DNA of 52,295 nt. Origin: Candidatus Saccharimonadota bacterium (GTDB lineage: Bacteria > Patescibacteriota > Saccharimonadia > Saccharimonadales > Saccharimonadaceae). The notes beneath the pieces are model-generated. The model did not search any database, was not told the origin of the DNA, and saw only the letters and a program-made list of their open reading frames with translations. Below are positions 9,565 to 50,233 of this stretch, one piece after another (position 1 is the first letter of the stretch; every line of letters begins with the position of its first letter). Location: contig JAFWBV010000011.1 in the NCBI GenBank assembly GCA_017506895.1, forward strand, positions 1-52,295, read 5' to 3'. The translations under genes and the position numbers were made by a program.

Positions 9565-9568
9565 CATG

Positions 9569-9688
9569 GAACAATAAAAAAATACCATCTCGGGACATTT
9601 CGGAGCCTGGCAAGGCGAGAATTAGTGCCGGCCGCCCGTGGCGACGGGTCGGCCGGACACGTGTCCCGAATGGTATTTTTTATTGTTC
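9569..9688. repeat. GC-rich palindromic element, copy 1 (intergenic)
   Basis: Terminal arms GAACAATAAAAAAATACCAT (9569-9588) and its near-perfect complement (ending 9688) enclose a GC-rich core. The core has inner arms CGGGAC/GTCCCG and a stable stem of GGCCG repeats capped by CCCG-TGGCGA-CGGG (9636-9649). Blocks of the core (CGGAG, GGCGAG, GTGGCGACGGG, CCCGAAT) recur in the copies at 41757 and 49610, while the outer arms do not. It fills the gap between gpmI and the antiporter gene, with its right arm touching the antiporter stop codon, so it may also terminate transcription. Confidence 0.9.
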
Positions 9689-18903: not shown

Positions 18904-20349
18904 TTAGTTAAACTTGACGCGGTGCACATTGTGGACAATATAATACACACCCACCATTACAACTGATAGAACAGGAAGTATAAACACCATGCTCACCATT
19001 CCACCATCTGGACCATTAGTATTTGCGCCAGTATCAGGTACCGCTATAGCCTCACCATCGGATTTATCAGTAGATTCGTCCGTCTTATCATTCTCTTTAT
19101 CATTCTCCTCATCATTTTTTTCATCGTCCTTATTATCGCCATTACCGTCTTCTCCCGAATCGTCATCGCCTGGCGTATTGTCGCCAGTATTATCACCACC
19201 CGTATTATCGCCTGGAGTGTTCCCGCCAGTATTGTCGCCACCAGTATTGTCACCCGTGTTATCTTCACCAGTATTATCGCCAGAAGTATTTCCTCCAGTA
19301 TTATCACCTGTGTTATCTCCGCCAGTATTATCGCCAGAAGTATTTCCACCCGTGTTGTCACCTGATGTATTTCCGCCAGTATTATCACCACCTTCATTAT
19401 CTCCACCGGTATTGTCGCCCGATGTATTCCCGCCAGTATTATCACCTGGAGTATATTCCTGTTCAAACATGGCAGTACAACTGTAGTTTTCATTGACCGT
19501 CAAAGATAAATTTGAATTAGTATATTCTTCACCATTGCATACCCATTTGTCAAAACGATAACGATAGTCAGAATCAGCAACAGCTACCATAGTTACAGTT
19601 GTTCCAGGAGTCACAGTCTTAGAAAACTCATCACTATATAAAATACCATCGACATTGACTTTACCGCCATCTCCAGGATAAATAGTCACATCATATAGAA
19701 TAAATTCCTGCTCAAGTATAAAATGAGCAGTACATTCAATATTAAATTCGCCCATCGTTACAGTTGCAGTGGCAGAATTGTAATCTCTCAAAAAAGAATT
19801 GTCACTTACCTTTCTGCAAGTCCACTTAGAAAAAGAATATCCATCATTAGCCGTTGCGCGAATAGTTACTTGACTATTCGCTGTTGTGGTTTGTCCACCA
19901 GACACAGAACCACCTCTTGATGGGTCAGCTGAGACAGTAATAGTATAAGTAGGTGTGTATTCCTGCTCAAGTATAAAATGAGCAGTACATTTAATATTAA
20001 ATTCGCCCATCGTTACAGTTGCAGTGGCAGAATTGTAATCTCTCAAAAAAGAATTGTCACTTTCCTTTCTACAAGTCCACTTTGAAAAAGAATATCCTTC
20101 TTTTGCCGTAGCGCGAATAGCAACATAATCTCCTGGTTCTACATCAGTCTGCTTACCAGTCACAGTTCCACCATTTGACGGACTCGCAACGACATCCACA
20201 TCATACGCCCCTGCACCTTCAGCATTTACTTCCCCGTTTGTTCTAACAAAATGGTAACCAGTAGCACCTAACGCTAGTGCTACAATCGCGAAACAAAATG
20301 CACACAGAATAAAACGTGCCCTTTTATTAATGGAAAAACTTCTTTTCAT
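18904..20349 (-). CDS. wall-anchored surface protein with InlB-like repeats
   Basis: 481 residues. A long basic N-terminus and hydrophobic segment (13-33) act as signal or anchor. Three related beta-repeats follow (about 50-130, 137-215 and 218-298). Each has a GG-V/S-G and GYSFSKWTC or RFDKWVC pattern typical of divergent InlB B-repeats. Next come a Gly-Asn-Thr-Asp linker (about 300-400) and an acidic stalk. The C-terminus carries a sortase-like signal VPDTG, a hydrophobic stretch and a final VHRVKFN. So it is probably attached to the wall or membrane and displayed outside. Repeats 1 and 2 are nearly identical at DNA level, implying recent duplication. SD AAGGA precedes the ATG. Confidence 0.85.
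19150..19446. repeat. short tandem repeats coding the Gly-Asn-Thr-Asp stalk
   Basis: Degenerate 12-15 bp units (variants of CCAGTATTATCACC and CCAGAAGTATT) repeat about 20 times within the surface-protein gene. The units are in multiples of three, so copy-number change would alter stalk length without frameshift. Confidence 0.85.
19705..19865. repeat. direct repeat copy A within the surface-protein gene
   Basis: 161 bp nearly identical to 19960-20120, at a constant offset of 255 bp. It encodes the conserved part of InlB-like repeat 2. Confidence 0.88.
19960..20120. repeat. direct repeat copy B within the surface-protein gene
   Basis: Partner of 19705-19865 with only scattered substitutions. 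It encodes the matching part of InlB-like repeat 1. Confidence 0.88.
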
Positions 20350-39906: not shown

Positions 39907-42102
39907 TTAATAAAACACCGGCCCATCATCCGGAAATGGGTCAAAATCAGACTCACCAAAATCATTGAATCCATCTCCGTTTTCATCGCGAAAACCATTA
40001 AAATCTTCCGAGCCGTCGAGCCCTAAGCCGTCATCATCAAAATCCATCATCCCGTCACCATCACTATCACGATATCCACTTGAACCATAAGGATTGTAGC
40101 CAAGTTCCAACAAAAATCTCGACGGCATGTTATAATTACGCGCTCCATACGAATATCTTGAACCAGCATATGTCAAAAACAATTTACGCATTGCACGAGT
40201 CATACCAACATAAGCCAATCTTCTTTCTTCTTCCAAATCCTCTTCTTTTTCACTCGATCGCGATGTCGGGAATAAGCCTTCTTCCATACCCACAATAAAT
40301 ACCACCGGGAATTCAAGTCCCTTAGCAGCATGTAAAGTCATTAAAGTCACAGAATTTTTACCAGTAGCTTCATCCGCCGAAGACATCAAGCTCGCATCTG
40401 CCAAAAACTCATCCAAACTAAAATATTCCGATGCAGTTGCGGCCAGCACGTCCAAATTCCCCATTCTATCTTCTCCGCTTGGCGTACCGTCATCAGTCAA
40501 AGTTTTAAAATCAAAATATTCCACCGCACGCCTAATAATCTCTCCGACATTTTCATCTAGTGTCGTCTTTTTTAAGAAATTAATTAGTTTCATTAATCCA
40601 TTACGCGCTTTACCGGCTTTTAAAATCTCTGGCAAATCTACATTAAATAATGGCTTCGTATCGTCAATCGCGTCCATAGCCATCAAAATCTTAGTTAACG
40701 ACGCATCGCCGATACCCATCAGTACATTCGAAACTACCCTTGCTAAACTCACTTTATCGCGTTGATTAACAACCAAACGCAAAATCGCCAAAACATCTTT
40801 TACTTCCTTACGGTCATAGAATCTTACACCACCTATAATCTTATATGGAATTCGCATATCAATAAATGCTTTTTCAAACGCATACGATTGCGCATTTGTC
40901 CGATACAAAACCGCAAAATCACTATAATTCGAATAATCACGTTGCATGTTTAATATTTTGAGTGCCACGTAATTCGCTTCCGCCGTTTCATCTTGCAAAG
41001 ATTCAATCTCTACCGGTTCGCCTTTACCCTCTTCTGTAAATAATGTCTTCTCTGTTCGAGTCTTGTTTTCATTAATAATTTTTTGCGAAGCATCCAATAT
41101 GTTTCCAGTCGAACGATAATTCTGTTCTAGCTTTATCACTTTCGCACCAGGAAAATCTTTTTCAAAATTCAAAATATTTGTGAAATCTGCTCCCCGCCAA
41201 GAATAAATCGATTGCCAGTCGTCGCCCACCACGCAAATATTTTGCTTTTCATTCACCAAAAGTTTCACAATATTATATTGTATGACATTTGTATCCTGAT
41301 ACTCATCAATCAAAATATGCTCAAATCTTTCTTGCCATTTTTTTCGAATTTCTGGATAGTTTTGCAACAACTCTAATTCTTTTAATAATAAATCATCAAA
41401 ATCTAAAGCCTGTGCTTTTGCTTTTTCTTTTTCATAGTTATAAAAAACTTTTGCAATTTGTTTTTGATTCGGATATAAAGCTTTCGCTTCGTAATCTTCC
41501 GGTCCATTTCCTTGATTTTTCTCGCTTGAAATAATTGACTGAATTGATTTCGGTTTTAACTGCTTATTTTCCGACAGTTTTAAATCTTTAATAATTCGGC
41601 GAATCAAAGAAATTTGATCATCTGTATCATAAATGACAAAATTATTATCAAGCCCCATTTTTTCGCCTTCGATTCTTAAAATCTTCACTGCAATTCCATG
41701 AAATGTTCCCATATAAGGCATAAAGGAACGCGTCGGCTCTGAGTAATTTTCAGGAGCATCATCTATATCCCAATTCGGGGGATTTCGGAGCGCGGCAGCG
41801 CGAGAGTTAGCGCGCGAGCCCCGTGGCGACGGGCGCGAGCGACGCGACCCCGAATGGGATATAGATGATGTCCCATCAAGCAGCCTCCAGAGCCTCTCAC
41901 GCATTTCTTTCGCAGCCTTGTTTGTAAACGTTACAGCAAGAATATGATTCGGTTGCACTCCATGCGCAATCAAATTTGCAATTCGATGTGTCAAAGTTTT
42001 AGTTTTTCCAGAACCAGCACCCGCCAAAATCAAAAGTGGACCAGACAATGTTTCAACCGCATCTTTTTGCCTATCATTTAAACCGTCTAAAATTCTATCC
42101 AT
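39907..42102 (-). CDS. UvrD/PcrA superfamily 1 DNA helicase with in-frame palindromic insert
   Basis: 731-residue 3'-5' helicase for repair and replication-fork processing. Motifs: I LAGAGSGKTKT (26-36), Ia FTNKAAKEMRERL, II LIDEYQDTN, III VVGDDWQSIYSWRGAD, IV EQNYRS, V TLHAAKGLEFPVVF and VI EERRLAYVGMTRA. Between Ia and the TFHGIA segment, residues about 78-115 are foreign: SGSRRSRPSPRG... RAAALRNP. They are encoded by the GC-rich palindromic element at 41757-41870, which keeps the frame. The C-terminal 65 residues are acidic and Gly-rich (DSDGDGMMDFDDDG, DENGDGFNDFGE), like calcium-binding loops and unusual for PcrA. Leaderless promoter. Confidence 0.95.
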   Translation of the reverse strand: MDRILDGLNDRQKDAVETLSGPLLILAGAGSGKTKTLTHRIANLIAHGVQPNHILAVTFTNKAAKEMRERLWRLLDGTSSISHSGSRRSRPSPRGSRANSRAAALRNPPNWDIDDAPENYSEPTRSFMPYMGTFHGIAVKILRIEGEKMGLDNNFVIYDTDDQISLIRRIIKDLKLSENKQLKPKSIQSIISSEKNQGNGPEDYEAKALYPNQKQIAKVFYNYEKEKAKAQALDFDDLLLKELELLQNYPEIRKKWQERFEHILIDEYQDTNVIQYNIVKLLVNEKQNICVVGDDWQSIYSWRGADFTNILNFEKDFPGAKVIKLEQNYRSTGNILDASQKIINENKTRTEKTLFTEEGKGEPVEIESLQDETAEANYVALKILNMQRDYSNYSDFAVLYRTNAQSYAFEKAFIDMRIPYKIIGGVRFYDRKEVKDVLAILRLVVNQRDKVSLARVVSNVLMGIGDASLTKILMAMDAIDDTKPLFNVDLPEILKAGKARNGLMKLINFLKKTTLDENVGEIIRRAVEYFDFKTLTDDGTPSGEDRMGNLDVLAATASEYFSLDEFLADASLMSSADEATGKNSVTLMTLHAAKGLEFPVVFIVGMEEGLFPTSRSSEKEEDLEEERRLAYVGMTRAMRKLFLTYAGSRYSYGARNYNMPSRFLLELGYNPYGSSGYRDSDGDGMMDFDDDGLGLDGSEDFNGFRDENGDGFNDFGESDFDPFPDDGPVFY
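41757..41870. repeat. GC-rich palindromic element, copy 2 (in frame inside uvrD/pcrA)
   Basis: Outer arms CATCATCTATATCCC (41757-41771) and its exact complement (ending 41870), extended by TTCGGGG/CCCCGAA, enclose a core. The core contains CGGAGCGCGGCAGCGCGAG and the loop CCCCGTGGCGACGGG. The length is 114 bp, a multiple of three, with no stop in the uvrD frame. GC is far above the flanking gene. The arms encode uvrD-like flanking sequence and are not shared with copies 1 and 3. Confidence 0.93.
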
Positions 42103-42128: not shown

Positions 42129-43679
42129 TTATATTCCAGTTAATGGTTCAATGTCTGCACCTAGATGCCTTAGTCTCGCCGCAAAATCTTGATAACCACG
42201 ATTAATCGTATAAATGTTTCTCAAAATCGAAGTCCCCGGAGCAGCCAACATTGCTAAAAGTACCACTACGGCTGGGCGTAATGCTTGTGGCGCCGTCAAA
42301 TCAGCTGGACGAAAATTCGTTGGTCCTTCAATATACACTCTGTGTGCATCTAGAAGCTCCACTTTCACATTTAAATTTGCTAGCTCCGTGATATAAACTG
42401 CACGATTTTCAAATACCCAATCGTGAATCAATGTCCTTCCTTCTGCCACCGCGGCAATTACGGAAAAGAATGGCAAATTATCAATATTAAGTCCCGGAAA
42501 CGGCATCGGATGAATCTTATCGACCGGTGCCACTAAGTTTGATTTGTGTATCACTAAATCTACCAACCTAGTTCGACCATTTGCCGACGCATATTCCGCC
42601 GATCGTTCAATTTTTGCTCCCATATTCTTAAGAACTTCCAACTCAATTTCCAAAAACTCTATTGGTGCACGCGTAATCGTAATTTCCGATTTTGTCACAA
42701 AAGCCGCCGCGATAAACGACATCGCTTCAATCGGATCTTCTGAAATACTATAATCTACATCAAGATCAATCTGTGGACGTCCCACTACAGTCAAAGTAGT
42801 AGTACCAATTCCGCTCACTTTTACACCTAATTTTTCCAAAAAGAAACAGACATCTTGCACCATATAATTTGGCGAAGCACCCACGATTATTGTACGCCCA
42901 GGCGCTAACGCTGCCGCCATCAACACATTTTCAGTCACCGTATCACCACGTTCGGTCAGCACAATATATCTATCACGATATTTGCGTAAAGTTTCTTGTT
43001 TAACGCTTACTTCATAAAAACCACTATTGCAAGTCGCATCTACGTCAAGCCCAAACGATTTTAAAGCTTGAATGTGCGGCTCCACCGTTCGTGTACCAAG
43101 CGAACATCCACCCGCATACGGTATCCTAAATTTCGGATAACGATGTAGCAAAGGCCCCAAAAACATAATGATTGAACGTGTTTTTCTGGCCGCTTCAATA
43201 TCCATTTCATCTAATTTTAATTCGCGTGGTGATATAATTTCTAGATCTCTATGACGGTTTTGCCAGTGGCATTTTACACCAATAGATTCCAAAACTTCAA
43301 TAATTCTAAATACTTCTTCAATTCTTGCCACCTTTCGAAGCACCGTTCTCCCAGTATTAAGAAGTGCCGCACAAAGTAGCCCCACTGCCGCATTTTTCGA
43401 TGTATTCACCGTTATCTCACCATGTAACTCTCTACCGCCTCGAATTCTAAAACTCTGCGAAACTGAATCATTTATAGAGAGAATCTGGCTTCCAAGGGCT
43501 TCAGAAAGTTTCTTTACCATTTCAAGTGAAATATTTTGCCCACCTTTTTCAATTCGGTGAATTGCCGACTGGCTCGACCCCACCATCTTTGCCAATTCGT
43601 CTTGCGTCCATCCTTTTTCTGTTCTTAAATGTTCTATTGTTTCACCAATCAGTTGCTGGTAAGTTTTATTCTTTTTCAT
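42129..43679 (-). CDS. murA: HTH-XRE fused to UDP-GlcNAc 1-carboxyvinyltransferase (MurA)
   Basis: 516 residues. Residues about 1-70 form a Cro/CI helix-turn-helix (GWTQDELAKMVGSSQSAIHRIEKGGQNIS, split across the domain). The rest is a full MurA/EPSP-synthase-fold enzyme, which transfers enolpyruvate to UDP-GlcNAc as the first committed step of peptidoglycan synthesis. The substrate-binding Lys-Asn (NTSKNAA) and the active-site Cys in YAGGCSLGTRTVEPH (about Cys192) are present. MurA normally lacks any DNA-binding domain. The fusion suggests direct transcriptional feedback by the enzyme (inference). The start at 43679 is used because the earlier ATG (43688) overlaps the -10 box. Confidence 0.93.
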   Translation of the reverse strand: MKKNKTYQQLIGETIEHLRTEKGWTQDELAKMVGSSQSAIHRIEKGGQNISLEMVKKLSEALGSQILSINDSVSQSFRIRGGRELHGEITVNTSKNAAVGLLCAALLNTGRTVLRKVARIEEVFRIIEVLESIGVKCHWQNRHRDLEIISPRELKLDEMDIEAARKTRSIIMFLGPLLHRYPKFRIPYAGGCSLGTRTVEPHIQALKSFGLDVDATCNSGFYEVSVKQETLRKYRDRYIVLTERGDTVTENVLMAAALAPGRTIIVGASPNYMVQDVCFFLEKLGVKVSGIGTTTLTVVGRPQIDLDVDYSISEDPIEAMSFIAAAFVTKSEITITRAPIEFLEIELEVLKNMGAKIERSAEYASANGRTRLVDLVIHKSNLVAPVDKIHPMPFPGLNIDNLPFFSVIAAVAEGRTLIHDWVFENRAVYITELANLNVKVELLDAHRVYIEGPTNFRPADLTAPQALRPAVVVLLAMLAAPGTSILRNIYTINRGYQDFAARLRHLGADIEPLTGI

Positions 43680-43686
43680 ACTAACC

Positions 43687-43695
43687 ATTATATCA
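43687..43695 (-). promoter_or_regulatory. extended -10 box of the HTH-murA gene (leaderless)
   Basis: TGATATAAT on the minus strand, last T at 43687, 7 nt before the ATG at 43679. Confidence 0.8.

Positions 43696-48100: not shown

Positions 48101-50233
<2,133 letters not shown>

Follow-up and report, generated by a model that had tools for sequence, protein, structure and literature searches.

A dispersed palindromic element with target-copied arms lies in frame in uvrD and other conserved genes of a Saccharibacteria genome

The uvrD/pcrA-type helicase gene analyzed here carries, in frame, a palindrome whose center belongs to a dispersed family, R1, and whose outer arms derive from the host gene. 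We favor, with moderate confidence, a model in which R1 is a non-autonomous, mobile-like palindromic element and template switching during replication both creates its arms and preserves them. The window, a 52,295-nt stretch of contig JAFWBV010000011.1, belongs to a genome of 715 kb with relatives among Candidatus Saccharibacteria, mostly from the ruminant gut. Features of the window are collected in Table 1.

Table 1. Positions of the uvrD palindrome, its parts, and the other R1 copies of the window
Feature	Position	Strand	Details
uvrD/pcrA-type helicase ORF, 731 aa	39907..42102	-	NCBIfam pcrA TIGR01073, E 2.2e-218; PcrA/UvrD structures
Whole palindrome (arm + core + arm)	41757..41870	no strand	
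Left outer arm CATCATCTATATCCCA	41757..41772	+	unique to the uvrD copy; gene strand encodes WDIDDA
R1 core in uvrD	41774..41854	+	model positions 1-81; 99.9 bits, E 4.4e-25; antisense to uvrD
P2 hairpin GCGC-GGCA-GCGC	41790..41801	+	every pair kept in all aligned copies
P3 long hairpin, apex CCCGTGGCGACGGG	41810..41845	+	compensatory changes; both partners differ in 7 of 15 pairs
Right outer arm TGGGATATAGATGATG	41855..41870	+	exact inverted left arm; gene strand encodes TSSISH
ligA, NAD-dependent DNA ligase, 702 aa	48101..50209	-	second in-frame R1 copy
R1 palindrome in ligA	49611..49720		arms GAAGTTTCAGTTGAA / TTCAACTGGAATTC; core 49626-49706
R1 palindrome, intergenic	9568..9688		arms GGAACAATAAAAAAATACCAT / TGGTATTTTTTATTGTTC; core 9589-9670; terminator-like arms

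Results

A Palindrome Occupies a Loop of the UvrD Helicase

The palindrome comprises 114 bp, with 82 nt between its two arms, and the outer arms pair perfectly at 16 of 16 positions. Folded as single-stranded DNA, it gives z scores of -5.5 (plus strand) and -6.7 (minus strand) relative to dinucleotide shuffles, none of which (0/200) equals the observed fold. The sequence-only reading had placed this element, in frame and stop-free, inside a UvrD/PcrA helicase, and the ORF confirms it: the gene strand reads ...LLDGTSSISHSGSRRSRPSPRGSRANSRAAALRNPPNWDIDDAPENYSEPTRSFMPYMGTFHGIA... without a stop. The repeated unit is the core of about 81 nt; the 16-nt outer arms are host-derived and lie outside the element. 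The right arm, which continues LWRLLDGTSS, is probably the native side.

The predicted position of the insert, between motif Ia and the TFHGIA segment, also holds. Residues 3–79 of the query align with residues 7–84 of PcrA, and residues 130–668 with residues 88–642; because PcrA/UvrD structures align on both sides, the insert falls between the helix that follows motif Ia and the TFHGIA strand, where it takes the place of a short loop (PcrA 84–88). Many orthologs of the same genus lack the segment and have a short loop such as LLNGISTDSPRSFMPYMGTFH instead, and 21 such empty sites were measured. The insert is thus derived, and these empty orthologs rule out an ancestral conserved domain, the finding that would have refuted the earlier reading.

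An AlphaFold2 model built with 42 orthologs assigns pLDDT values below 50 to residues 78–119, whereas the adjoining segments are confidently predicted. Overall, the model is of moderate quality (mean 69, pTM 0.47), and UvrD/PcrA structures are its first matches in Foldseek. Because the low-confidence residues lie between confident segments, a disordered loop is a reasonable reading of the model, which to that extent supports the proposal that the protein tolerates the insert as a surface loop. Most likely, the R1 copy has no function for the helicase.

In several other species the uvrD loop, and likewise the ligA loop, is filled by palindromic elements other than R1, so that both loops appear to be repeatedly or persistently occupied; they resemble hot spots or sites that have been occupied for a long time. 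The elements found there include members of the F2 and F3 families with their own gene-derived arms, in the uvrD loop (L060, L061, L062, L066) and in the ligA loop (L092, L093, L095, L099–L102). By eye, the ORF adjoining uvrD (42129–43688, minus strand) is an apparent fusion of an N-terminal XRE-like helix-turn-helix with a MurA-like UDP-GlcNAc enolpyruvyl transferase domain.

R1 Is a Multicopy Family with a Conserved Three-Way Junction

A model built from eight copies finds 20 R1 matches in the genome, all with E ≤ 0.0033 (the weakest at 0.0033), and a reversed-pattern control search returns none. The window contains two copies besides that in uvrD: the ligA copy is in frame, and the other is intergenic. 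Elsewhere in the window, a surface-protein-like ORF (18904–20349, minus strand) contains a 162-nt repeat present twice at 95% identity, as well as a long tract of the GDNTGG type in which units of 12 and 15 nt are repeated in tandem.

The R1 core of about 81 bp is a conserved three-way junction of the stems P1, P2, and P3, in which P1 forms the base of the outer stem. Between copies, 13 of 27 core pairs have changed on both sides; the covariation score is 0.357, compared with 0.158 in shuffles, and none of 500 shuffles reaches the observed value. The termini, TTCGGGG/CCCCGAA, form a short inner repeat that is common to the copies, yet variable.

Of 60 relatives, 34 carry R1, every one of them in the same genus. 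Within the order it occurs in three of 122 genera, all of the same family; its range is limited to a single family of Saccharibacteria. No Rfam family matches R1 at the gathering score, and a relaxed search returns mir-172 (on the hairpin) and a flavivirus element, both far below threshold. Among viral contigs, the longer R1 pattern has no match, and a 19-base pattern has three, in apparently unrelated sequence that lacks the rest of the element.

Other palindromic families accompany R1. F4 is shorter, with core GAGTTAGTAAGACTTGGCCTAGCGGCCCGGAGCGCTAACTC and copy-specific perfect arms (L158:17965–18043 and L152:2213–2296; in the own genome, C2 and C3), and in one F4 copy the perfect arms, with the shared inner part counted, reach 26 bp. 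A composite site (L230:9753–9849, equivalent to G119:C1:59753–59849) combines an F2 core with what is left of an R1 core, which apparently encloses it or is joined to it; related species carry plain R1 at this site.

The Outer Arms Are Copied from the Target

The outer stem of R1 palindromes is copy-specific, its sequence varying from one copy to the next. Across 69 copies, the median stem score is 12 for cognate flanks and 4 when the flanks of different copies are combined, and 71% of the copies exceed the 99th percentile of the non-cognate scores (10). Protein alignment shows that one arm carries on the native gene sequence and that the other is its inverted copy. Judged in the same way, the native arm is gene-5′ in dus, the iscS-like gene, mnmA, and trmD, and gene-3′ in tatD. 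The F2 and F4 families have the same arm architecture, as seen from few copies.

Empty sites (21 in uvrD and 10 in ligA) contain no inverted repeat beyond chance, with a best stem of 6.0 in both real and shuffled sequences; an inverted repeat that was already there at coding sites is thereby ruled out. Residue counts against empty orthologs put the net gain outside the core at about +3 nt for trmD, +6 nt for mnmA, +14 nt for dus, and +18 nt for the iscS-like gene. From these sizes, the arm copy would seem to be partly added and partly to replace the target. Target-site direct repeats were not detected (3.54 nt for cognate and 3.46 nt for non-cognate flanks, with approximate boundaries). In the intergenic copies (9568–9688, and copies in G119, G170, G071, and G075), the arms resemble extended terminators with an A-tract and a T-tract (CAACAAAAAAGTACC.../...GGTACTTTTTTGTTG), and here the element may lie within terminator loops.

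Cores Are Inverted and Exchanged in Place

We compared the clade formed by G119, G170, G071, and G075, whose members are mostly 80–95% identical and have nearly all R1 sites in common. The obg core has one orientation in G119 and G071 and the opposite one in G170 and G075: the G119 and G170 cores are identical at a fraction of 0.97 when one is inverted, and 0.42 when compared directly. The corresponding values for the same two genomes at the terminator site are 0.98 and 0.45. The obg ORF is open with the core in either orientation. In ligA, near-identical arms surround an R1 core in G010 and an F2 core in G018. Furthermore, columns of both arms change jointly between species in ligA and obg, at four sequences per site. 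Two published footprints of template switching are therefore found at R1 sites, namely the homogenization of arms, from few sequences per site, and the inversion of the spacer between them, at the obg and terminator sites.

Within this clade, coding sequence yielded no clean pair of genomes with and without a recent insertion. No very young insertion whose empty allele is almost identical was found either; at 82–95% identity, nearly all sites are shared. For this reason, the entry step of R1 was not observed.

R1 Lies in Conserved Genes and Favors One Codon Phase

Fifteen of the 20 R1 copies of the genome lie inside long ORFs. The host genes are uvrD, ligA, trmD, a TatD DNase gene, mnmA, a class-V aminotransferase gene (iscS-like), queA, the gene for gyrase subunit A (gyrA) or topoisomerase IV subunit A, a dihydrouridine synthase gene (dus), ychF, a TIGR01177-like methyltransferase gene, and ileS and obgE, each with two inserts. 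Empty orthologous sites exist for uvrD, ligA, trmD, mnmA, the iscS-like gene, dus, and one of the obg sites.

In all coding copies examined, the full-length frame stays open. Among 36 coding copies from several genomes, which are not all independent because some loci are the same site in related genomes, 27 use one codon phase, +0/-0 (sense or antisense). Phases +1 and -2 are open at a similar frequency (31/36 and 33/36), yet are used only 4 times. The favored peptides, including FRSAAARELAPSARGDGPDGRGPE, are hydrophilic, and one disfavored reading is more hydrophobic (ALTLALPGS). The phase preference and the hydrophilic peptides fit selection on the translated product.

Discussion

A Template-Switching Model for R1

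In our model, once a nascent strand has copied the core, it would fold back on the terminal pairs TTCGGGG/CCCCGAA and copy the adjacent flank, leaving on the far side of the core an inverted copy of that flank, which becomes the second arm. Later switches between the arms would homogenize them and invert the core. New sites would, more tentatively, be entered by this route too, without a dedicated transposase. Within genes, R1 would survive only where the frame is kept and the peptide is hydrophilic and loop-forming.

The model draws on published footprints. Template switching between inverted repeats homogenizes arms and inverts spacers in yeast genes (PMC8604942), and the creation and maintenance of hairpins have been attributed to it in RNA hairpins (PMC8794818). 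Arm maintenance and core flipping by this route are supported by the comparison of genomes, whereas entry into new sites is inferred, as no recent polymorphic insertion was found. Other observations also count against the model: the inverting spacer of R1 is about 80–100 bp, whereas those in yeast are at most 5 bp (2–5 bp; PMC8604942), the native side varies between gene-5′ and gene-3′, the net insert size outside the core varies, with target sequence sometimes replaced, and the arm covariation comes from four sequences per site.

A more far-reaching proposal sees R1 and its sister families as selfish elements that lack their own enzyme and spread and persist purely through template switching. 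Every new copy would fold back and take up the neighboring gene sequence as its second arm, an inverted, rather than direct, target duplication, and the palindrome would serve as a landing site at which cores invert and replace one another in essential genes. We regard this as possible, and put it forward only tentatively. The Y1 transposase (PF01797) was found in 0 of 22 same-genus genomes, while the control matched 5 of 14. Most of the 22 same-genus genomes encode a reverse transcriptase (RVT_1), as does one of 14 genomes of other families. However, this genome and other copy-rich genomes lack the enzyme, and a reverse transcriptase was rejected as the driver, as G000, G003, G004, and G018 have none and bear 13 to 20 copies. 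One reverse transcriptase (L256:824–2361) has a small helical-looking protein upstream and, judged by its neighbors, probably belongs to a diversity-generating retroelement.

Alternative Explanations

R1 might instead be a conventional MITE, with terminal inverted repeats and an undiscovered transposase, that acquired its host-like arms later by template switching. Its dispersal in many copies and the short conserved termini TTCGGGG/CCCCGAA would fit, and the transposase search covered Y1 only. Within that scope, however, the 22 same-genus genomes contain no such enzyme; the arms reach into host sequence in most copies already, and direct repeats at the target are missing, at boundaries that are approximate. 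We therefore consider this origin unlikely. The terminator-like A-tract and T-tract arms of the intergenic copies raise another thought, that R1 inserts solely where a hairpin, for example a transcription terminator, already exists and that the arms are older than the element. Most copies in the own genome are in coding sequence, however, and inverted repeats at the empty coding sites are no stronger than chance predicts, which makes this explanation highly improbable.

A functional RNA, either a regulatory three-way junction or a ribozyme, could account for the conserved junction and its covariation; alternatively, splicing or translational bypassing might remove the segment so that the peptide is never made, and bypassed palindromes are known from yeast mitochondria (mentioned in PMC6649704). 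Neither a full-length open frame nor a phase preference of 27/36 would be expected of a segment that is skipped, and the best that Rfam offers is the sub-threshold mir-172. To these readings we assign still less weight. Assembly error has to be considered, as most or all of the genomes appear to be metagenome-assembled and palindromes are prone to mis-assembly. But 34 genomes of the genus contain R1, its frames are open and its flanks conserved, and related species share its sites; we give an artifact almost no credence.

Significance

Coding palindromes have been known in Rickettsia since 2000. The lineage described here, whose genus has 174 genomes, offers many copies in several families, alleles with and without the element, and cores that are inverted or exchanged, so that the part played by template switching in the making, upkeep, and movement of an element is directly testable in it. 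It is a reduced-genome bacterium that apparently accepts inserts of 30–40 residues in a helicase, a ligase, tRNA-modifying enzymes, and GTPases. The insert sites form a natural catalog of tolerant loops, and they call for caution in annotation and structure prediction.

Relation to Known Systems

A full-text search of the open-licence literature found no paper that links "palindromic element" with Saccharibacteria, and a broader search returned nothing relevant by title. As far as we have checked, target-copied arms, an invertible core, and core exchange are undescribed for such elements. Like MITEs, REP/BIME, and ERIC sequences, R1 is small, non-autonomous, hairpin-forming, and multicopy. It differs from them in that its fixed terminal repeats appear to extend no further than about 7 bp, no target-site duplication was detected, and the copies are mostly intragenic; in contrast to REP/BIME, no RAYT/Y1 transposase was found in 22 same-genus genomes. 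Arm homogenization and spacer inversion, also in coding sequence, are shared with template switching at quasi-palindromes (PMC8604942, PMC8794818), but the R1 spacer of about 80–100 bp is itself a repeated element, whereas the published spacers are 2–5 bp. Mitochondria of Nematomorpha likewise have inverted repeats inside protein genes, for which repeat conversion and template switching have been discussed as means of maintenance (PMC6649704). No shared mobile core has been described there, in contrast to the dispersed core and host-derived arms of R1 on a bacterial chromosome.

R1 behaves much like the Rickettsia palindromic elements (RPE) and their counterpart in Wolbachia, which are palindromic and translated in frame inside conserved proteins (PMC2229807). 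R1 is also palindromic, within a size range of about 100–150 bp, both genic and intergenic, predicted to be translated in frame, and probably tolerated by the host protein; it is a multicopy palindrome (114 bp, about 20 copies) that is in frame in conserved genes and absent from orthologs. The R1 insert peptides have no NCBIfam or Pfam match, and by peptide profile, the one means by which kinship was checked, no relationship to RPE by descent was detected. The two differ in that R1 is found in Saccharibacteria, has an arm copied from the target flank, and has a core that is inverted and exchanged in place. Moreover, the identity between the repeats of RPE is reportedly lost with time (PMC6649704), whereas the arms of R1 covary.
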